DNA from: Clostridiales bacterium | GTDB taxonomy: Bacteria > Bacillota > Clostridia > Oscillospirales > Oscillospiraceae | Assembly (NCBI GenBank): GCA_021205455.1 | Contig: JAJPXL010000089.1 | Location: 1 to 64,000 of the forward strand | DNA length: 64,000 nt | Direction of reading: 5' to 3' | Shown: piece after piece, positions 24,152 to 34,615 of the stretch | Numbering within the stretch: position 1 is the stretch's first letter | Layout: every line of letters begins with the position of its first letter | The notes under the pieces: model-generated | What the model was told of the DNA's origin: nothing | Seen by the model: only the letters and a program-made list of their open reading frames with translations | Database searches by the model: none | Translations under genes and position numbers: made by a program

Positions 24152-26080
24152 GTGATTGTGAATTTGATACCCATCCTGATTCTGTTCCCGTTTCTGATGG
24201 CCGCAATCCTCGCGCTGGTAAAGGACGACAAAGCGCGGGGCATCTGTGTGTACATTGGTTCCGGCGTCACGATGGTGCTGGCCCTGGCCGTCAGCGCCTG
24301 GTGGCTATCCCATGGGCAGTCAGACCTGCTGCTGTTTGTGGAAACCTCGCTGGTGGATCATCTGATGATCGTCGGCGACCTGTTCCTGATGTGCCTGGTG
24401 ATCTACATGAGCATCAAGCACAAGAAGTATCCCATCGTCCTGCTCAGCGCTGTCCAGACCATCGGCGTGCTGTGGGTGGAGCTGTTCGGCGGCTCCGTGG
24501 AGGAGACGCCCCATATCCTGGTGGACCGCCTCAGCATCATTCTGCTGCTGATTGTCGCCATCATCGGCGGCCTGATCGTTATCTACGCTGTGGGCTATAT
24601 GCGGGGCTATGTGCATCACCACACGGAGTTTGCAGACCGGAGAGGGTTCTTCTTCCCCATGCTGTTCGTCTTTCTGGGGGCCATGTTCGGCCTGGTGCTG
24701 TCGGCGAGCATGACCTGGATGTATTTCTTCTGGGAAATCACCTCTGTCTGCTCCTTCCTCCTGATTGGCTATACCAGGACCGACGAAGCGGTACACAACA
24801 GCTTCCGCGCCCTGTGGATGAACCTGTTGGGCGGCCTGGGCTACGCGGTAGGCATCATCTGGTTTGCTGTCACCCATCATTCCTTCAGCCTGTCCGCGGT
24901 GGTGGACGCCGGGAAGGGCGGGGATATGGTGGCCGTTGCCTGTGTGGCGCTTCTGAGCTTTGCGGCGCTGACGAAGTCCGCCCAAATGCCGTTCAGCCAG
25001 TGGCTGCTGGGCGCCATGGTGGCCCCTACGCCCACCTCTGCCCTGCTTCACTCGGCTACCATGGTCAAGGCGGGCGTGTACCTGCTGCTGCGGCTGGCCC
25101 CTGCCCTGCAAAATAACTGGGCGGGCTACATGGTGGCCTTCATCGGCGGCTTCACCTTCTTTGTGGCCTCGCTGCTGGCAATTTCCCAGAGCGACGCCAA
25201 GAAGATTCTGGCCTATTCCACCATCTCCAACCTGGGTCTGATCACTGCCTGCGCCGGTATCGGCGCGTCGGAGACCTACTGGGCGGCGGTGTTCCTGATT
25301 ATCTTCCACGCGGTATCCAAATCCATGCTGTTCCAGTCTGTCGGCGCGGTGGAGATTTCCACCGGCAGCCGTGACGTGGAAACCATGCACGGCCTGATGC
25401 TGCGGATGCCGAAGCTGGCCGTTGTTATGGTCATCGGTATCTGCGGTATGTTCCTGGCTCCCTTCGGTATGCTGGTCTCCAAGTGGGCCGCATTGAAGGC
25501 GTTTGTGGACGCAGGCGGCCTGCTGGGTACACTCATGCCGCTGTTCGTCTGCTTTGGCTCCGCCACCACCTGCCTGTACTGGTCGAAGTGGCTGTGCCGC
25601 CTGCTGGTGGTGGACCATATCCGCACGACGAAGGACCTCACCGGCAGGAATGAGTACGTCTCCCTGTTCTCCCACGCCGCGATTATGATTCTGCTGTGCC
25701 TCAGCTTCCCCACGCTGTCCACCAACCTGGTGCTGCCCATCGTCACCGAGCTTTACGGCGAAGTGGACCCCACCATCACTACCGGCAACCTGCTGTTCAT
25801 GGTGGTGCTGCTGTTCTGTGTGTTCGTGATTCCCCTCCTGGTGTTCCTGGTGACCAGGCGCTCCCATCCCCATCCTGTTATGAGTTATGTGGCCGGTATC
25901 AACACCGGAGACAGCCAGCACTTTGTGGACTCCATGGGGGAGGAGAAGGAGATTGAGACAACCTCCTGGTACATGGAGGACTGGTTCGGCGAGAAACGGC
26001 TGATGTTCCCCAGCCTGGCGATTTCCAGCTTTATCATTGTGCTGTGTATGATTCTGCTGTTGGGAGGTGTAGTCGCATGA
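24152..26080 (+). CDS. echA: Ech-type membrane-bound [NiFe] hydrogenase subunit A (NuoL/MrpA-like)
   Basis: 642 aa polytopic protein, GTG start; LLGGLGYAVGIIWFA, KSAQMPFSQWLLGAMVAPTPTSALLHSATMVKAGVYLLLR. Confidence 0.9.
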   Translation: MIVNLIPILILFPFLMAAILALVKDDKARGICVYIGSGVTMVLALAVSAWWLSHGQSDLLLFVETSLVDHLMIVGDLFLMCLVIYMSIKHKKYPIVLLSAVQTIGVLWVELFGGSVEETPHILVDRLSIILLLIVAIIGGLIVIYAVGYMRGYVHHHTEFADRRGFFFPMLFVFLGAMFGLVLSASMTWMYFFWEITSVCSFLLIGYTRTDEAVHNSFRALWMNLLGGLGYAVGIIWFAVTHHSFSLSAVVDAGKGGDMVAVACVALLSFAALTKSAQMPFSQWLLGAMVAPTPTSALLHSATMVKAGVYLLLRLAPALQNNWAGYMVAFIGGFTFFVASLLAISQSDAKKILAYSTISNLGLITACAGIGASETYWAAVFLIIFHAVSKSMLFQSVGAVEISTGSRDVETMHGLMLRMPKLAVVMVIGICGMFLAPFGMLVSKWAALKAFVDAGGLLGTLMPLFVCFGSATTCLYWSKWLCRLLVVDHIRTTKDLTGRNEYVSLFSHAAIMILLCLSFPTLSTNLVLPIVTELYGEVDPTITTGNLLFMVVLLFCVFVIPLLVFLVTRRSHPHPVMSYVAGINTGDSQHFVDSMGEEKEIETTSWYMEDWFGEKRLMFPSLAISSFIIVLCMILLLGGVVA

Positions 26081-26946
26081 TGTTGAGTGCGATCATTGGA
26101 ATCGGATACATTCTGTTGGCTCCGCTAATCGGCGGAATGCTGGACGGTATGGGCCGCGTGGTTTCTGCCCGTATGCAGGGACGGAAGGGCCCGTCCGTGC
26201 TTCAGCCCTTCTGGGACCTGCAAAAGCTGATGAAAAAAGAACTGGTGACCGTCAGCCGTATGCAGCTGATTATGATTGGCTCCTACACGCTGTTTATCAT
26301 TCTGTCCGGCACGCTGTTCTTCAGCGGCAATGACATTATGATGTGCTTCTTCTCTCTGACCACGGCGGATATGTTCCTGGTGGTGGCGGCCAGCTGCACC
26401 GGCTCCCCCTTCTCCACCATGGGTGCAAACCGTGAGCTGATTCAGATGGCTTCCTATGAGCCGATGCTGCTGCTCACCGGCGTGGGGTTCTATCTGGCGG
26501 ACGACACCTTCCGGGTATCCACCATCGGCACCCATGAGGGCCTGCCTGCCATCGTCATGCTGCCCGGCTTTTTCATCGGGGTGGTGTTGATTCTGGTCAT
26601 CAAGCTGCGCAAAAGCCCCTTTGATATCTCCACCTCCCACCACGCCCATCAGGAGATGGTGAAGGGGACCACAACGGAGCTGTCCGGCCCGTCCCTGGCC
26701 TGCTACACCATTGCGGATTGGTATGAGCAGGTCATGCTGATGGGCATCATCGGCATCTTCTTTGCCAACAACCGTTGGTGGTCCGTCGTGGTGGCACTGG
26801 TCTGCATTGTTCTGGTCTACTTCTTCGAAGTGCTGATTGACAACACCTGTGCCCGTGTTAAGTGGCAGCTCATGTTCAAGGTGGCATGGGGCGTTACCCT
26901 GGTGGCCGCCGGCACCAATCTGCTGCTCTTGCAGATGATTCGTTAA
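26077..26946 (+). CDS. echB: Ech hydrogenase subunit B (NuoH-like)
   Basis: ATGA overlap with echA; GMGRVVSARMQGRKGPSVLQPFWDLQKLMKKE; RKSPFDISTSHHAHQEMVKG. Confidence 0.92.
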   Translation: MMLSAIIGIGYILLAPLIGGMLDGMGRVVSARMQGRKGPSVLQPFWDLQKLMKKELVTVSRMQLIMIGSYTLFIILSGTLFFSGNDIMMCFFSLTTADMFLVVAASCTGSPFSTMGANRELIQMASYEPMLLLTGVGFYLADDTFRVSTIGTHEGLPAIVMLPGFFIGVVLILVIKLRKSPFDISTSHHAHQEMVKGTTTELSGPSLACYTIADWYEQVMLMGIIGIFFANNRWWSVVVALVCIVLVYFFEVLIDNTCARVKWQLMFKVAWGVTLVAAGTNLLLLQMIR

Positions 26947-26959
26947 GGAGGGGTAGAAG

Positions 26960-27403
26960 ATGAAATTATCCAGATCTCCCTGGCTGATTCACTACGATTG
27001 CTCCAGCTGCAACGGCTGTGATATTGAGGTTCTGGCGTCCACCATGCCCCGCTATGACCTGGAGCGCTTCGGCATTATCAACTCCGGCGACCCCATGCAC
27101 GCGGACATCCTGCTGACCACCGGCGGCTGCAACGCGCAGAACGCTCCTGTGCTGAAGCAGATTTATGACCAGATGCCCGACCCCAAGGTGGTCGTTGCGG
27201 TGGGCACCTGCGCCTGCACCGGCGGCATCTTTAAGGGGTGCTATAATATCCAGGGCGGCACGGACACGGTGATTCCGGTGGATGTGTACGTCACCGGCTG
27301 CGCGGCCCGGCCTCAGTCCATCATCGACGGCGTGATGCAGGCCCTGGCTATCCTGGACAAAAAGTATGAGGCCTATACCGAAGATCCAAAGGAGGGCATC
27401 TGA
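26960..27403 (+). CDS. echC: Ech hydrogenase small subunit (NuoB-like)
   Basis: YDCSSCNGCDIEVLAS, VAVGTCACTGGIF, VTGCAARPQSIIDGV. Confidence 0.94.
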   Translation: MKLSRSPWLIHYDCSSCNGCDIEVLASTMPRYDLERFGIINSGDPMHADILLTTGGCNAQNAPVLKQIYDQMPDPKVVVAVGTCACTGGIFKGCYNIQGGTDTVIPVDVYVTGCAARPQSIIDGVMQALAILDKKYEAYTEDPKEGI

Positions 27404-27405
27404 GC

Positions 27406-27747
27406 ATGGCAAAACTGACTTACAATGTGGATGACATCGACATTGGCGAGCTGATGCCCCGCTGCGCGGCCTATAAGGGCTACGGCTGGCGGCTGTGCCA
27501 AATCCACAGCGTTCGAACGAAAATCGGCTATGAGCTGACCTACTCTCTGGCCAAGGATTATGAGCTGCACAACTTCCGCGTCACCGTGGAGGAGACGGAG
27601 GAGGTGCCCAGCATCACCCCCATCTATGCCTGCGCATGGATGTATGAAAACGAGATTGCGGAGCTGTTCGGGGTCAATATTGAGAATATTCGTCTGAATT
27701 ACGACCGGAAGCTGTACAAGCTGAACGTCCAGACGCCGTTTAAGTGA
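27406..27747 (+). CDS. echD: Ech hydrogenase subunit D (NuoC, 30-kDa subunit-like)
   Basis: Position, and YACAWMYENEIAELFGVNIENI. Confidence 0.9.
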   Translation: MAKLTYNVDDIDIGELMPRCAAYKGYGWRLCQIHSVRTKIGYELTYSLAKDYELHNFRVTVEETEEVPSITPIYACAWMYENEIAELFGVNIENIRLNYDRKLYKLNVQTPFK

Positions 27748-27762: not shown

Positions 27763-28842
27763 ATGAGTAAAAAAAGTGTGGTACCGTTTGGCCCTCAGCA
27801 TCCGGTCCTGCCGGAGCCGCTCCACCTGGATTTGGTTCTGGAGGATGAAAAGGTCGTGGATGTGATTCCGGAGATCGGCTTCATCCACAGAGGGCTGGAA
27901 CATTTGGTGGACAAACGGGATTTTAAGGACTACGTCTATGTGGCGGAGCGCATCTGCGGCATTTGTTCCTTCATGCACGGCATGGGCTACTGCGAGTCCA
28001 TCGAGTACGGCATGGGGATTGAGATCCCCAACCGGGCCAAATATTTGCGCACCATCTGGGCGGAGATGAGCCGGGTGCACTCCCATCTGCTGTGGCTGGG
28101 CCTGCTGGCGGACGGCTTCGGCTTTGAGTCCCTTTTCAACGAGTGCTGGCGCATTCGGGAGGACGTGTTGGATATGCTGGAGGCGTCCACAGGCGGCCGC
28201 TGCATCTTCTCCGTCAACAACGTGGGCGGCGTCATCAAGGACATGGACAGCGCCATGCTCCACGGCTTTGTGGAAAAGTTTGACAAAATAGAGCGGGACC
28301 TTCACGACGTGGTGGACACCTTCCTGAACGACTATACGGTAAAGAGCCGTTTGGTGGGGGTCGGCTACCTGTCTGAGCAGGCCGCCTGGGGCCTGGGCGC
28401 CTGCGGCCCTATGGCCCGGGCCTCCGGCTGTAATCTGGATATGCGGATGCTGGGCTATGCCGCCTATGGCGATTTGGATGTTAAGATTGCGACCTCAACC
28501 GGCTGTGACTGCTACGCCCGCACAGAGGTCCGCATCCAGGAGATTTTTAACGCCATCGACCTGATTCGCCAGGCAGTGGACAAGATTCCGGCAGGGGATT
28601 TGATTGTCCCGGTGAAGGGGAACCCCACCGGCGAGTTTATGGTGCGCATGGAGCAGCCCCGCGGCGAGGCCTGCTACTTCACCAGGGGTAACGGCACCCC
28701 CTATCTGGACCGGTTCCGTGTGCGCACCCCGACCTTTGCCAACATTCCCGCTATGACTGAAATTATGAAAGGCTGCGACGTGGCGGATATTCCAATGATT
28801 ATCCTGACCATTGACCCCTGCGTCAGCTGCACGGAGAGGTGA
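27763..28842 (+). CDS. echE: Ech [NiFe] hydrogenase large subunit
   Basis: N-terminal Ni ligands ERICGICSF; C-terminal DPCVSCTER immediately followed by the stop. Confidence 0.95.
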   Translation: MSKKSVVPFGPQHPVLPEPLHLDLVLEDEKVVDVIPEIGFIHRGLEHLVDKRDFKDYVYVAERICGICSFMHGMGYCESIEYGMGIEIPNRAKYLRTIWAEMSRVHSHLLWLGLLADGFGFESLFNECWRIREDVLDMLEASTGGRCIFSVNNVGGVIKDMDSAMLHGFVEKFDKIERDLHDVVDTFLNDYTVKSRLVGVGYLSEQAAWGLGACGPMARASGCNLDMRMLGYAAYGDLDVKIATSTGCDCYARTEVRIQEIFNAIDLIRQAVDKIPAGDLIVPVKGNPTGEFMVRMEQPRGEACYFTRGNGTPYLDRFRVRTPTFANIPAMTEIMKGCDVADIPMIILTIDPCVSCTER

Positions 28843-28848
28843 TAGACC

Positions 28849-30012
28849 ATGGGATTGATGACATTTGCCAAGGTTGCCGTGCGCAACCTGTTCTCCAAGC
28901 CGTACACCACCAATTACCCCTATGAACCGGCGTACTACCCGGAGCGCTCCCGCGGCCGCATTCTGCTGGACCACAGCAAGTGCGTCCTGTGCGGCTTGTG
29001 CAGCACCCATTGCCCGACGGACACCATCTTCATCGACCGGAAGGCCGGCACCTGGAACATGAACCGCTTTGACTGCGTCCAGTGCGGCAACTGCGTAAAG
29101 GTCTGCCCCAAGTCAGCCCTGTCCATCGTGCCCGGTTACTTCACCCCCAATGTGACGAAGCTGATTGAGACGAATCAAATCAAGGCTCCCGCCGCCTTCA
29201 CCGGCAACACGACGGAGCCTGGTGCGATTCCTACCGGCCCGGCTATGGCTGTGCCTGTGGTCAACGACGCCTGTATCCTGTGCGGCGCCTGCGCGGCCCA
29301 GTGTCCTGCCGGAGCCATCACGGTGGAGGATGGCTGGTCCGTCAACGCGGAGGCCTGCCTGGGCTGTGAGGGCTGCATCTCTACCTGTCCGGAGAACGCC
29401 CTGAGCATGAAGAGCGCTGTTGCCCCCGGCCACGAGGCGGCCATGGCTGCCTCCGACAAGGAGTGGGGCGTGCAGCGGAAGCTGGGCCGTCGGCCCTATG
29501 TGCCCCAGTTCGACAAGGACGGGGAGGAAATTCCCGTTCCAGCCTGTACGCTGCCGGACTATGTGGATGAGTGGGCCGACCTGCCGGTGTCCACACCTGA
29601 GAACTGCGTGTACTGCGGCCTCTGCTCCAAGCAGTGCCCCAAGGGTGCCATCGTGGTTGACCGTAAGGAAAAGATCTGGGAAGTGGACAACGCCGAGTGC
29701 ATCCGCTGTGGCATCTGCGTAGAGAACTGCCCGAAGCAGGCCCTGACCCTGCCCGATGTCACCAAGGATGTGCCGGTGGAAGAGGAATCGGACTTTATCA
29801 TCGCCTGCCTGGAGCCGGGTTACAACGCCGAATTTACCGACCTGCCCAGGAAGGGCGACGAGTGTGTGTACTGCTCCCTCTGCGCGAAGAAGTGCCCTGT
29901 GAGCGCATTGACCGTGGACCGCAAGACCAAGACCTGGACGGTGGACAACGAGCTGTGCGTCCGCTGCGGCGTCTGCGCCGGCGTATGCCCCAAGAAGTGC
30001 ATTGAGCTTTAA
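28849..30012 (+). CDS. echF: Polyferredoxin-like EchF subunit with eight 4Fe-4S motifs
   Basis: Eight CxxCxxCxxxCP motifs: CVLCGLCSTHCP, CVQCGNCVKVCP, CILCGACAAQCP, CLGCEGCISTCP, CVYCGLCSKQCP, CIRCGICVENCP, CVYCSLCAKKCP, CVRCGVCAGVCP. Confidence 0.9.
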   Translation: MGLMTFAKVAVRNLFSKPYTTNYPYEPAYYPERSRGRILLDHSKCVLCGLCSTHCPTDTIFIDRKAGTWNMNRFDCVQCGNCVKVCPKSALSIVPGYFTPNVTKLIETNQIKAPAAFTGNTTEPGAIPTGPAMAVPVVNDACILCGACAAQCPAGAITVEDGWSVNAEACLGCEGCISTCPENALSMKSAVAPGHEAAMAASDKEWGVQRKLGRRPYVPQFDKDGEEIPVPACTLPDYVDEWADLPVSTPENCVYCGLCSKQCPKGAIVVDRKEKIWEVDNAECIRCGICVENCPKQALTLPDVTKDVPVEEESDFIIACLEPGYNAEFTDLPRKGDECVYCSLCAKKCPVSALTVDRKTKTWTVDNELCVRCGVCAGVCPKKCIEL

Positions 30013-30075: not shown

Positions 30076-32340
30076 ATGGCCGCTGTGACGGAGCGCATTA
30101 CCGTATATGGCATGGTGCAGGGCATTGGATTCCGCCCCTTCGTCGCCCGTCTGGCGGAGGAGATGGGGGTCGCCGGTACTGTGCGGAACAGCGGCGGCAT
30201 TGTGGTAGCCGAGGTGACAGGGGAGCAGGCTGTGCTGAATCGCTTTGTGGAGCGGCTGGAAGGGGAGTGCCCCTTCGGGGGCCGCATCGACCGCGTTTCG
30301 CGGGAGCAGCTGCCCTTCAGGCAGGACAGCAGCTTTTCCATTGTGGAGAGCGAACCGGCTTCCGGGGAGCCGCCCCTGATTCCACCCGACCTGCCCACCT
30401 GTCCCCGCTGCGCCCGGGAGCTGCATGATAAAGGGAACCGCCGATACCGCTATCCCTTCATCAGCTGCGTGGCCTGCGGCCCCCGCTACAGCATCATCAA
30501 GGCGCTGCCCTATGACCGATGCAATATCACCATGGATATGTTTCCCATGTGTGAGGACTGCCAAAGGGACTATACGGCCAGGCAGGATGTGCGCCGCCAC
30601 GCCCAGACCATCGCCTGCCACAGCTGCGGCCCGGTGCTGGCGCTGGACACCAGGACGGAGCATCTCAACCGGGAAGCGGCCCTCCGGCGCGGAGTGGAGC
30701 TGCTCAAAAACGGCAGCATTCTCGCCGTGAAGGACATCGGCGGCTATCATCTGGCCTGCAACCCCAATCGGGAGGATGCGAACCGCCGCCTGCGGCAGCT
30801 GAAGGGCCGGGAGAAGAAGCCCTTTGCGGTGCTGTTCCATGACGTAGAGGCGGTGCGGCGGTATTGTTACCTCTCCGACGCGGAGGAGCGGCTGCTGACC
30901 GCTGCACCCCGCCCCATTGTCCTGCTGAAAAAGCGGCCGGGCAAGGATTTCGCGCCCTCCTGCTGCGGCAGCAGCCTGGAAATCGGGGCCATGCTGCCCT
31001 GCAATCCGCTGCAAATCCTCCTGTCGGAGGCGTGCGGCCCCCTGGTGATGACCAGCGGCAACCGCTCCGGCCTGCCGATGATGACGGCGGACGGCCCCAT
31101 GCTGGATTGGCTGCGGGAGAGCGACCTGCTGGACGGGGTGTTCTCCCACGGGCGGGAGATTCTGACCCCGCTGGACGATTCCGTGGTCCGCATCGTAGAG
31201 GGGGAGCCGCAGTTCTTTCGGCGGGCCAGAGGGTATGTGCCGGAGCCAATCATGCTGCAACAAAAGACAAACACCCCGTTCTTTGCAGCGGGGGGAGACT
31301 TGAAGGCCTGCTTTGGGCTGGTCAGTGGCGGGCGGGTTTACCTCAGCCAGCATTTTGGTGACCTGGAGGAGTGGGATGCCTTTCAGTCCTACCAGACTGC
31401 GGCAAAACGAATGGAGAACCTGTTCCAAATTGAGCCGGAGTTCGGCGTCTGCGACGGACACCCAGGGTATTTTTCCGGGAAATACGTCCGTCAGCGCTGC
31501 TCCAGCTGTTCCACCGTCCAGCATCACCACGCCCATATTGCCTCGGTCATGGCGGAGTATGGTTTGACGGGGCCTGTGCTGGGGGTGGCCTTTGATGGCA
31601 CCGGGTATGGCACAGATGGCACAATCTGGGGCGGGGAATTTTTGCTCTGCACCGGCCCAGACATGGCTCGTGTGGGCCACATCGCCGCTGTTCCCTTATT
31701 GGGCGGCGATGAGAGCGCCAGAAACGCAGATGCCAGCCTGACGGGCTATTTGCTCCACGCCGGACTGAGCAGGGAAGGGGAGCGCAGCCAAACGGTGGAG
31801 GCGGCGCTCCGGCTGGGCGTCAACACAGTGCGCTCCTCCTCTATAGGGCGGCTGTTTGACGCTGCGGCGGCCCTGCTGGACATCTGCCACTACAATAGCT
31901 ACGAAGGGGAATGCGCTATCCTCCTGGAGCAGGCGGCGGCAAAGGCAGAAGATGCCTACCCCTTGCCCATCCCAGTGCAGGAGCAGGACGGCTGCCTCGT
32001 GGGGGACAGCGCCGCCCTCCTGCAGGCCATGTGGGAAGGGCAGGAAAAAGGCGCGTCCCCTGCGTCGCTGGCCCTGGGCTTCCACCATGCCGTGGCGGAG
32101 CTGACCCTGACGATTTGCCAGCGCCAACGGGCGGCCGACGGCGTGAAGCAGGTGGCCCTGTCCGGCGGAACCTTTCAAAACCGCATCCTGTTGGAGCGTA
32201 CCGCGGCGCTGCTGCGGGCGGACGGCTTCACCGTTTACTACAACCGTCAGGTGCCGCCGGGTGATGGCGGGCTTGCCCTTGGGCAGGCCTGGGTCACGAT
32301 TTTGGCGCAGCAGAGCGACGGATCAGCAGACAATTCATAG
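30076..32340 (+). CDS. hypF: Carbamoyltransferase HypF
   Basis: Acylphosphatase N-terminus, CPRCARELHD / CPMCEDC-type zinc motifs, QHHHAHIASVMAEYGL, VALSGGTFQNRIL. Confidence 0.96.
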   Translation: MAAVTERITVYGMVQGIGFRPFVARLAEEMGVAGTVRNSGGIVVAEVTGEQAVLNRFVERLEGECPFGGRIDRVSREQLPFRQDSSFSIVESEPASGEPPLIPPDLPTCPRCARELHDKGNRRYRYPFISCVACGPRYSIIKALPYDRCNITMDMFPMCEDCQRDYTARQDVRRHAQTIACHSCGPVLALDTRTEHLNREAALRRGVELLKNGSILAVKDIGGYHLACNPNREDANRRLRQLKGREKKPFAVLFHDVEAVRRYCYLSDAEERLLTAAPRPIVLLKKRPGKDFAPSCCGSSLEIGAMLPCNPLQILLSEACGPLVMTSGNRSGLPMMTADGPMLDWLRESDLLDGVFSHGREILTPLDDSVVRIVEGEPQFFRRARGYVPEPIMLQQKTNTPFFAAGGDLKACFGLVSGGRVYLSQHFGDLEEWDAFQSYQTAAKRMENLFQIEPEFGVCDGHPGYFSGKYVRQRCSSCSTVQHHHAHIASVMAEYGLTGPVLGVAFDGTGYGTDGTIWGGEFLLCTGPDMARVGHIAAVPLLGGDESARNADASLTGYLLHAGLSREGERSQTVEAALRLGVNTVRSSSIGRLFDAAAALLDICHYNSYEGECAILLEQAAAKAEDAYPLPIPVQEQDGCLVGDSAALLQAMWEGQEKGASPASLALGFHHAVAELTLTICQRQRAADGVKQVALSGGTFQNRILLERTAALLRADGFTVYYNRQVPPGDGGLALGQAWVTILAQQSDGSADNS

Positions 32341-32352
32341 GAGGAAGGACGT

Positions 32353-32571
32353 ATGTGCGTTGCATTGCCAGGCAGAGTGACGGCGGTGGAAGGCCGCATC
32401 GCCACGGTGGATTTTAGCGGAAATATCGTTCGGGCTCAGGCGGGACTGGTGCCGGTGAAGGTGGGAGACTGGGTGCTGGTACACGCGGGCTGCATCCTAC
32501 AGACAGTAGGCTCATCTGAAGCGGAGGAGCTGGTGGACATCTTCCGGGAGGTGGAGCAGCTTGGCGTTTGA
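32353..32571 (+). CDS. hypC: Hydrogenase maturation chaperone HypC
   Basis: MCVALPGRVTAVEG ... VGDWVLVHAGCIL. Confidence 0.96.
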   Translation: MCVALPGRVTAVEGRIATVDFSGNIVRAQAGLVPVKVGDWVLVHAGCILQTVGSSEAEELVDIFREVEQLGV

Positions 32572-33619
32572 CTTGGATTCGGTCAAGGCCTATCTGGCCT
32601 CCTATGACGGGCCGCCTGTGCGGATTATGGAGGTGTGCGGCAGCCACACCGCTGCCATTTCCAAGCTGGGGATTCCCTCGATGCTCAGCGAAAAAATCCA
32701 GCTGATTTCCGGCCCAGGCTGCCCTGTCTGCGTCACGCCCACGGCCTATATCGACCGATTGATCGACCTGAGCCTGACCGAGGGCTGCGCAGTCTGCACC
32801 TTCGGCGATCTGATGCGGGTGCCGGGAAGCCGGGACAGGGAAGTGCGCACCCTGAACCTGGCGAAGGGGAGAGGGGGTAAAGTTTATATGCTTTACTCGC
32901 CAATGGAAATCCTCCTTTTGGCGGAACAGCACCCGGAATGGACCTGGTACTTTGCCGCCGTGGGCTTTGAAACCACCACGCCGGTTTATGCTTTACTGCT
33001 GCAAGCCTTAGAGGAAAAGGGAATCACCAACGTGAAGCTGGTGACGGCCCTGAAAACCATGCCTTCTGTGATTGCGCATTTGTGCGAAAATGGCGCGAAT
33101 ATTGACGCTTTTCTTGCGCCTGGTCATGTCAGCGTCGTAACAGGGAGCCAGGTGTTCCAACCGCTGGCGGAGCGGTATCAGCTGCCCTTTGTCGTGTCCG
33201 GCTTCCAGGGCGGCGAGCTGTTGGCTGCAATCTATGGGGCGGTGCGCTCCGTGGGGCAGGGCCGCGTGCTGAACCTGTATCCCTCCGTGGTAACAGAACA
33301 GGGAAACTGTGAAGCACAAACCCTTGTCAGCCACTATTTCCAGCCGTGCTCGGCTGTTTGGCGGGGCATGGGGGAAATCGTCGGCTCCGGCATGATGCTT
33401 TGCCCTGAGTTTTCCGCTTACGAAGGGGGCAGCGCCGGTTTGAACCGGGACAACGCCAATCCGGCCTGCTCCTGTGGTGCGGTTTTATCCGGCAGGCTGC
33501 GGCCCCAGGACTGTCCCCTCTTCGGCAGGGGATGCACCCCAATGAACCCCCAGGGGGCGTGCATGGTCTCCACCGAGGGGAGCTGCTTTCAGTATTTGAC
33601 GAATCATCGTGACAGGTAG
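32561..33619 (+). CDS. hypD: Hydrogenase maturation protein HypD
   Basis: MEVCGSHTAAISKLG, GPGCPVCVTP, AVGFETTTP; TTG start overlapping hypC. Confidence 0.96.
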   Translation: MAFDLDSVKAYLASYDGPPVRIMEVCGSHTAAISKLGIPSMLSEKIQLISGPGCPVCVTPTAYIDRLIDLSLTEGCAVCTFGDLMRVPGSRDREVRTLNLAKGRGGKVYMLYSPMEILLLAEQHPEWTWYFAAVGFETTTPVYALLLQALEEKGITNVKLVTALKTMPSVIAHLCENGANIDAFLAPGHVSVVTGSQVFQPLAERYQLPFVVSGFQGGELLAAIYGAVRSVGQGRVLNLYPSVVTEQGNCEAQTLVSHYFQPCSAVWRGMGEIVGSGMMLCPEFSAYEGGSAGLNRDNANPACSCGAVLSGRLRPQDCPLFGRGCTPMNPQGACMVSTEGSCFQYLTNHRDR

Positions 33620-34615
33620 GTGTTCACCATGAAAATCACTATGGCCCACGGTGCCGGCGGCAGAGCCACCGGAGAATTGATTGGGCGAATTTTCGCCCGC
33701 CACTTCGATAACGAGATTTTGAACCAGATGGAGGACAGTGCCGTGGTGCCCGCCTCCGGGCACATCGCCCTGACCACAGACAGCTTCGTGGTGACGCCGC
33801 TGACCTTCCCCGGCGGGGATATTGGGCGGCTGTGCGTCTGCGGTACGGTGAACGATTTGGCCATGCGTGGCGCGATTCCCCAATACCTGACCTGCGGCTT
33901 TATCCTGGAGGAGGGGCTGGACAGCGCGCTGCTGGAAACCCTGGTGGCGAGCATGGCCGCCACGGCCCGAGAGGCCGGAGTGACCATTGTGGCCGGCGAC
34001 ACCAAGGTCGTGGAAGGCCAGGGCGGCCTCTATGTCAACACCGCCGGTGTGGGCTTTGTCCCGGACGGGGTGGAGATTTCCGCAACCTGCTGCACTCCGG
34101 GGGACGTTGTGCTGGTGTCCGGCGACTTGGGCGACCATCATGCCTGCATCCTCAGCCAGCGCATGGGGATTCAAACCGGCATTCAGAGTGATTGCGCCCC
34201 CCTCGGCGGGATGGTGCAGGAGCTGCTGGAGGCGGGCATCCAGGTGCACGCCCTCCGGGATGTGACCCGGGGCGGCCTTGCCACCGTCTTAAAGGAATTG
34301 GCTGAGGCATCCGGATGCAGCATCACCCTGGAGGAGGAAGCCCTTCCGGTGAACCCCCAGGTGCGGGATTTCTGCGGCCTGCTGGGGCTGGACCCGCTCT
34401 ATATGGGCAACGAAGGTAAGCTGGTTGCTATCCTCCCGGCTGCCCAGGCCGAGGATGCCCTGGCGGTGCTTCGGCGGAACAGATACGGTGGCCACGCCGC
34501 CTGCATCGGCACAGTTGGAGACGAAGAACCTGGCCTCCTGACAATCAAGACCTCCATCGGCGGCAGGCGGGCGCTGGATGTGCTACAGGACGAAGGGTTG
34601 CCCAGAATCTGCTAA
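33620..34615 (+). CDS. hypE: Hydrogenase maturation protein HypE
   Basis: MAHGAGGRATGELI; C-terminal PRIC motif. Confidence 0.96.
   Translation: MFTMKITMAHGAGGRATGELIGRIFARHFDNEILNQMEDSAVVPASGHIALTTDSFVVTPLTFPGGDIGRLCVCGTVNDLAMRGAIPQYLTCGFILEEGLDSALLETLVASMAATAREAGVTIVAGDTKVVEGQGGLYVNTAGVGFVPDGVEISATCCTPGDVVLVSGDLGDHHACILSQRMGIQTGIQSDCAPLGGMVQELLEAGIQVHALRDVTRGGLATVLKELAEASGCSITLEEEALPVNPQVRDFCGLLGLDPLYMGNEGKLVAILPAAQAEDALAVLRRNRYGGHAACIGTVGDEEPGLLTIKTSIGGRRALDVLQDEGLPRIC

Follow-up and report, generated by a model that had tools for sequence, protein, structure and literature searches.

The EchF subunit in its canonical form, as known from M. barkeri, T. kivui and the rumen butyrivibrio type, has an anchor followed by one two-cluster unit, and its gene is the last of the subunit genes. 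For Ech2 of T. kivui, H2 formation was shown to depend on ferredoxin and to be coupled to ion transport, and the purified enzyme accepted electrons from reduced ferredoxin (PMC9356269); a separate HycB2 subunit was also reported for it (PMC4320612, PMC9356269). Polyferredoxins are known from methanogens, with 6 clusters in EhaP, 10 in EhaQ and 14 in EhbK, in addition to 8 in FwdF and 12 in MvhB in other complexes (PMC3087415). In the human gut, [NiFe] hydrogenases of group 4e are moderately abundant and still need functional characterisation (PMC12578642).

The window, which is the whole stretch of 64,000 nucleotides that was analysed, carries a complete set of six ech subunit genes, as identified by Pfam matches, in the order A-B-C-D-E-F and followed by hypF, hypD and hypE (Table 1). 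EchE has both [NiFe] CxxC motifs (RICGIC and DPCVSCTER), unlike complex I, and all four of their cysteines (C65/C68 and C353/C356) were unchanged throughout the EchE alignment, while the solved structures nearest to it were HycE of formate hydrogenlyase (FHL) and the alpha subunit of MBH. The locus holds only the six-gene ech set and the hyp genes; the Eha/Ehb gene set with its many extra subunits is absent. Judged by its gene content, the operon is an Ech-type energy-converting [NiFe] hydrogenase with the six subunits EchABCDEF, and it probably belongs to group 4e.

Table 1 Genes of the ech locus and parts of the EchF protein, in window positions
Feature	Position	Strand	Description
echA	24152..26080	+	Antiporter-like membrane subunit, 642 aa, GTG start; Proton_antipo_M 1.1e-50, Proton_antipo_N 2.3e-8 (Pfam)
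echB	26077..26946	+	NuoH-like membrane subunit; start inferred, overlaps echA stop; NADHdh 9.2e-37 (Pfam)
echC	26960..27403	+	NuoB-like small hydrogenase subunit; Oxidored_q6 1.9e-29 (Pfam)
echD	27406..27747	+	NuoC-like subunit; Complex1_30kDa 7e-9 (Pfam)
echE	27763..28842	+	NuoD-like [NiFe] large subunit; Complex1_49kDa 2.3e-54, NiFeSe_Hases 6.3e-14 (Pfam)
echF	28849..30012	+	8-cluster polyferredoxin form, 387 aa
EchF N-terminal anchor	28849..28962	+	aa 1-38, as in canonical EchF/NuoI (EchF alignment)
EchF unit 1	28963..29130	+	aa 39-94, canonical EchF dicluster; groups with the first units of other EchFs
EchF unit 2	29254..29412	+	aa 136-188, divergent clostridial-ferredoxin-like dicluster, pair spacing 28
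EchF unit 3 leader	29542..29586	+	aa 232-246, ACTLPDYVDEWADLP, C233; common to the last linker of G009
EchF unit 3	29587..29754	+	aa 247-302
EchF unit 4 leader	29803..29847	+	aa 319-333, ACLEPGYNAEFTDLP, C320; duplicate of unit 3 leader
EchF unit 4	29845..30009	+	aa 333-387, tandem duplicate of unit 3
hypF	30076..32340	+	Maturation gene; HypF_C_2 3.3e-73 (Pfam)
hypD	32561..33619	+	Named by sequence reading; homologues at same place in relatives
hypE	33620..34615	+	Named by sequence reading; homologues at same place in relatives

The echF ORF begins with ATG six bases past echE, is preceded by GGAGAGG, a good ribosome-binding site, and is stop-free. The original prediction of one 387-aa protein whose eight CxxCxxCxxxCP motifs make up four two-cluster units was borne out by the motif positions (starts at aa 45, 76, 142, 170, 253, 284, 339 and 370), which form four pairs with within-pair spacings of 31, 28, 31 and 31, and by eight stretches matching Pfam Fer4 (E = 7e-46), a value that places the eight-motif pattern far beyond chance; the sequence strings quoted with it were also correct. 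Residues 6-97 matched NuoI and PRK08348 profiles, the anchor with unit 1 also matched MbhN (6cfw_N) by sequence as well as by Foldseek, and unit 2 had the highest FdxA-family score among the four units (46 bits). By its N-terminal anchor and its NuoI/MbhN-like dicluster unit the protein is a genuine EchF, which has been expanded from two to eight clusters as had been proposed for this hydrogenase. It differs from the canonical EchF by three more two-cluster modules, all at the C-terminal side, and lies outside the usual size of two clusters and about 110-190 aa, which is usual but not strictly defining.

Five more genomes of the genus encode this 387-aa, eight-motif protein (95-97% identical), so it cannot be an artefact of assembly; the low likeness of the DNA copies of the units (63-76% over 41 nt) likewise excludes a duplication made during assembly. 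Across the six orthologous genes, dN/dS was 0.062 overall and 0.00, 0.05, 0.06 and 0.12 for units 1 to 4, respectively (with dN = 0 in unit 1), and 35 out of 35 cysteines were unchanged. By these measures, the added units are long established and purifying selection acts on them. Two conserved cysteines that are not ligands, C233 and C320 (about 29545 and 29806), lie in the duplicated leaders before units 3 and 4.

Using EchE as bait, we read the adjoining EchF in relatives. Among 95 counted loci (a few genomes being counted twice, and one count of 4 being set by hand at a degenerate motif), EchF had 2 clusters in 57, 4 in 31, 8 in 4 and 10 in 3. Culturable hosts of a four-cluster EchF include Mediterraneibacter glycyrrhizinilyticus and an Anaeromassilibacillus strain (L109 and L139). 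The 80 named Clostridia loci had mostly 2 clusters, often 4 and in a few cases 8 or 10; since these were the best 80 matches, the proportions cannot be taken as unbiased frequencies. Within the wider family and order, in which the adjoining EchE was 60-98% identical to that of the window, the count was 2, 4 or 8, and all 29 further EchFs taken from a phylum-wide sample had two clusters. These numbers agree with the earlier description of the canonical EchF as a small two-cluster protein, and the survey that had been suggested with it yielded a 2/4/8/10 series in which the eight-cluster form is not the norm of the clade, though it is common to close congeners. As two clusters are the norm, the simplest view is that the long EchFs originated inside this group, and the presence of relatives with two to ten clusters indicates that the subunit was lengthened repeatedly in evolution.

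The EchE tree (97 rows) requires no fewer than 15 changes in cluster number (the mean for shuffled numbers was 32.7). EchFs with at least 8 clusters were present in the lineage of the window and G009, a genome of the same genus, in the lineage of L073, L080 and L086 (the contig of the last ends after five EchF motifs), and in L041 and L065, each on its own branch. When the starred branches alone were considered, at least 2 changes were forced for each of the classes 8 and 10. Eight or more clusters have arisen in at least three hydrogenase lineages, in addition to once in an MBH-type hydrogenase. The EchF of G009 (L063:4322-5626, - strand) has ten motifs in 434 aa, and its adjacent units 3 and 4 are 82% identical, as in a more recent tandem duplication. 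In the EchF of an uncultured Gemmiger isolate, E37__bin93 (L102), unit 1 has a degenerate second motif (CVQPCNRVNNC); either one cluster of this core unit may have been lost, or the base calls may be wrong. Another record, L140 (JAMPEQ010000008.1), is titled 'Bacteroides sp.', and its EchE is identical to that of G462 (L042), which belongs to the Clostridia and to the order of the window, so the name looks wrong.

Ferredoxin modules were also identified outside the EchF of Ech hydrogenases. Two EchD proteins (L147:9379-9999 and L039:857-1501, both on the + strand) carry, as a C-terminal fusion, a two-cluster ferredoxin cassette of the kind that is appended to EchF; in L039 it shares 88% identity with the second unit in the adjoining EchF, and in L147 the module is on EchD only. 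Such fusions would be expected if the position of a module matters less than its nearness to the complex. In G035, the F/N-type subunit of an MBH-like hydrogenase, normally a two-cluster protein, has eight motifs in 406 aa (L057:3649-4869, - strand), with linkers of about 31-51% Ala+Pro, and two relatives of this kind have four motifs. An Ech2-like identity was ruled out for the G035 hydrogenase since it is adjoined by the Mrp-type genes MnhB, MnhE, MrpF and MnhG, which make it MBH-like.

Units 3 and 4 had been said to strongly resemble unit 1. This wording is loose, as unit 1 shares 44% identity with unit 3 and 38% with unit 4, compared with 51% between units 3 and 4; unit 2 shares 35-40% with the others. 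The module phylogeny suggested with the original prediction was built from 55 modules over 55 columns and is weakly resolved, with most forks unsure; in it, this EchF clade's first units (n = 19) all came together and the appended units fell outside, while the first unit of G035, from the MBH-like clade, was a long outlier. The nearest relative of window unit 1 was unit 1 of G009 (69%), that of unit 3 was unit 5 of G009 (64%), and the best matches of unit 4 (up to 64%) were modules appended to other EchFs. Only unit 1, with the anchor, corresponds to the canonical EchF core, and units 2-4 to a separate, weakly resolved group of appended modules.

When aligned together with their leaders (AC..P.Y..E..DLP), units 3 and 4 showed 37 identities in 69 positions, and the score of leader 3 against leader 4 was equalled by 0.25% of shuffles. 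By this alignment, they are a tandem duplicate of a repeat of about 86 aa that includes the leader. The repeated internal duplication that had been proposed thus holds for units 3 and 4 but not for unit 1 as their source, an origin that was ruled out by the identities and by the module tree, the latter to be read with caution at its small number of columns. Linker 2 and unit 3 of the window matched linker 4 and unit 5 of G009 with 53 identities in 89 positions. In the simplest history, this shared last unit would have been inherited by both congeneric lines and then duplicated in the line of the window, and the line of G009 would have gained a different pair, its units 3 and 4.

In the AlphaFold2 model of the window EchF, which is weak (13 sequences, mean pLDDT of 60), the units had pLDDT near 65-82, the linkers of 30-58 aa were mostly below 50, and pTM was 0.34. 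Results for the ten-cluster EchF of L080 were alike (mean pLDDT 59.7, pTM 0.24, linkers below 50). Across multi-unit EchFs, Ala+Pro averaged 28.6% in linkers and 12.6% in modules, with extremes of 71-75% in the linkers of two proteins and just 17-29% in those of the window. These features bear on the extended electron wire of the original prediction. In a rigid form of such a wire, the eight clusters would be packed in an ordered chain like that of FwdF or MvhB and would connect the hydrogenase to a distant bound redox enzyme. MvhB and FwdF are indeed among the nearest multi-cluster proteins of solved structure by sequence (PDB), FwdF was the top Foldseek match (E = 4e-8), and the Eha/Ehb polyferredoxins have been proposed as electron carriers (PMC3087415). 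However, the TM-score to FwdF was about 0.15 with an rmsd near 21 Å, meaning that single units match and not their arrangement, which was rejected as a structural match; the linkers are long and of low confidence; and module number varies freely in close relatives (8 versus 10 within one genus). A rigid wire is therefore not favoured and we regard it as unlikely.

The long low-confidence linkers, their average Ala/Pro content and the poor overall fit to FwdF rather favour a tail of tethered ferredoxins. On balance, the tail probably resembles beads on a string, with ferredoxin modules on long linkers that act as a built-in, locally concentrated ferredoxin pool and docking array. The anchor and unit 1 would sit in the hydrogenase and pass electrons to the cluster of EchC and then to the [NiFe] site of EchE, with unit 1 as a fixed conduit and units 2-4 as mobile entry points. 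These three 2[4Fe-4S] modules, tethered behind unit 1, would make ferredoxin more concentrated locally and may serve as docking points for donors, and the tail would collect low-potential electrons from donors such as free ferredoxin or PFOR and hand them to unit 1. Occupancy of the clusters, flexibility and mobility of the tail, a flow from ferredoxin to H2 and a benefit are presumed here. A bound partner could order the tail, its flexibility being suggested by low model confidence and composition. The lower Ala/Pro content of the linkers in the window EchF, compared with those of some relatives, and the conservation of one leader motif speak against this reading. Modules would accumulate as a dicluster cassette, available ready-made, is duplicated in tandem and exchanged, and their number would therefore drift (2, 4, 8, 10) between lineages.

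Plausible partners, either donors or competitors, are present in the genome: PFOR, Rnf, [FeFe] hydrogenases and a single free clostridial ferredoxin. The docking of several donors that had been predicted is possible. By eye, the content of Rnf, PFOR and [FeFe] hydrogenases showed no association with this EchF, as most genomes of the genus have them regardless. Perhaps the tail instead takes the place of a HycB-like connector and holds a single dedicated partner, e.g. PFOR, in a physical complex. No HycB-like gene was seen in the ech locus of the window, compared with the separate HycB2 of T. kivui Ech2, and the leader motif around C233 is kept in G009, hinting at a specific contact. Against this, no partner gene was found to travel with long EchF among the ech and hyp genes that were looked for, hyp neighbours being present at every cluster number, and we consider such a specific docking subunit quite improbable.

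It is very unlikely that the main role of the extra clusters is to hold electrons and even out bursts, with the donor unchanged: cluster number does change frequently between lineages, as for a capacity trait, but six extra one-electron sites per complex are, by general reasoning, few compared with the cellular ferredoxin pool. Least probable of all is a near-neutral gain and loss of modules by slippage with little benefit, for which the many changes on the EchE tree and the degenerate motif of L102 could speak, since purifying selection is strong, the ligands are invariant in units 2-4, and the dN/dS of 0.05-0.12 already weakens it.

Returning to the tethered ferredoxin pool, a broader and much more tentative idea, possible but not what we would expect, is that gut Clostridia repeatedly turned the entry subunit of Ech, and separately of MBH-type hydrogenases, into a swinging-arm device. 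By analogy with the lipoyl domains of pyruvate dehydrogenase, dicluster cassettes on flexible, often Ala/Pro-rich tethers would form a covalent ferredoxin pool, freely evolving in number and movable between EchF and EchD. A tethered pool, if true, would offer a redox parallel to swinging-arm enzymes, and a principle by which ferredoxin-dependent catalysts might be coupled by design. The natural series of one hydrogenase with 2, 4, 8 and 10 clusters lets the effect of extra modules on electron entry, donor choice and energy coupling be asked.

In the literature searched, which lay mostly outside subscription journals, neither a description of an expanded bacterial EchF nor a paper joining 'polyferredoxin', 'Ech hydrogenase' and 'EchF' was found. 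The Eha/Ehb polyferredoxins, likewise encoded with an energy-converting [NiFe] hydrogenase, are the known precedent; they are archaeal and additional proteins, whereas in the window the extension is in the core EchF itself, whose first unit is canonical. FwdF and MvhB likewise consist of tandem 4Fe-4S ferredoxin modules but belong to other enzymes. Multi-cluster forms of RnfB with extra ferredoxin modules are also known. In A. woodii (PDB 9eri, chain B), RnfB is likewise a multi-cluster ferredoxin-like subunit of a bacterial ion-pumping complex, although both the complex and the core are different and the ferredoxin modules alone match the window EchF. The HycB-type subunit of T. kivui Ech2 likewise brings extra clusters to the electron-entry side of an Ech hydrogenase, there as a separate subunit and here as a fused tail.
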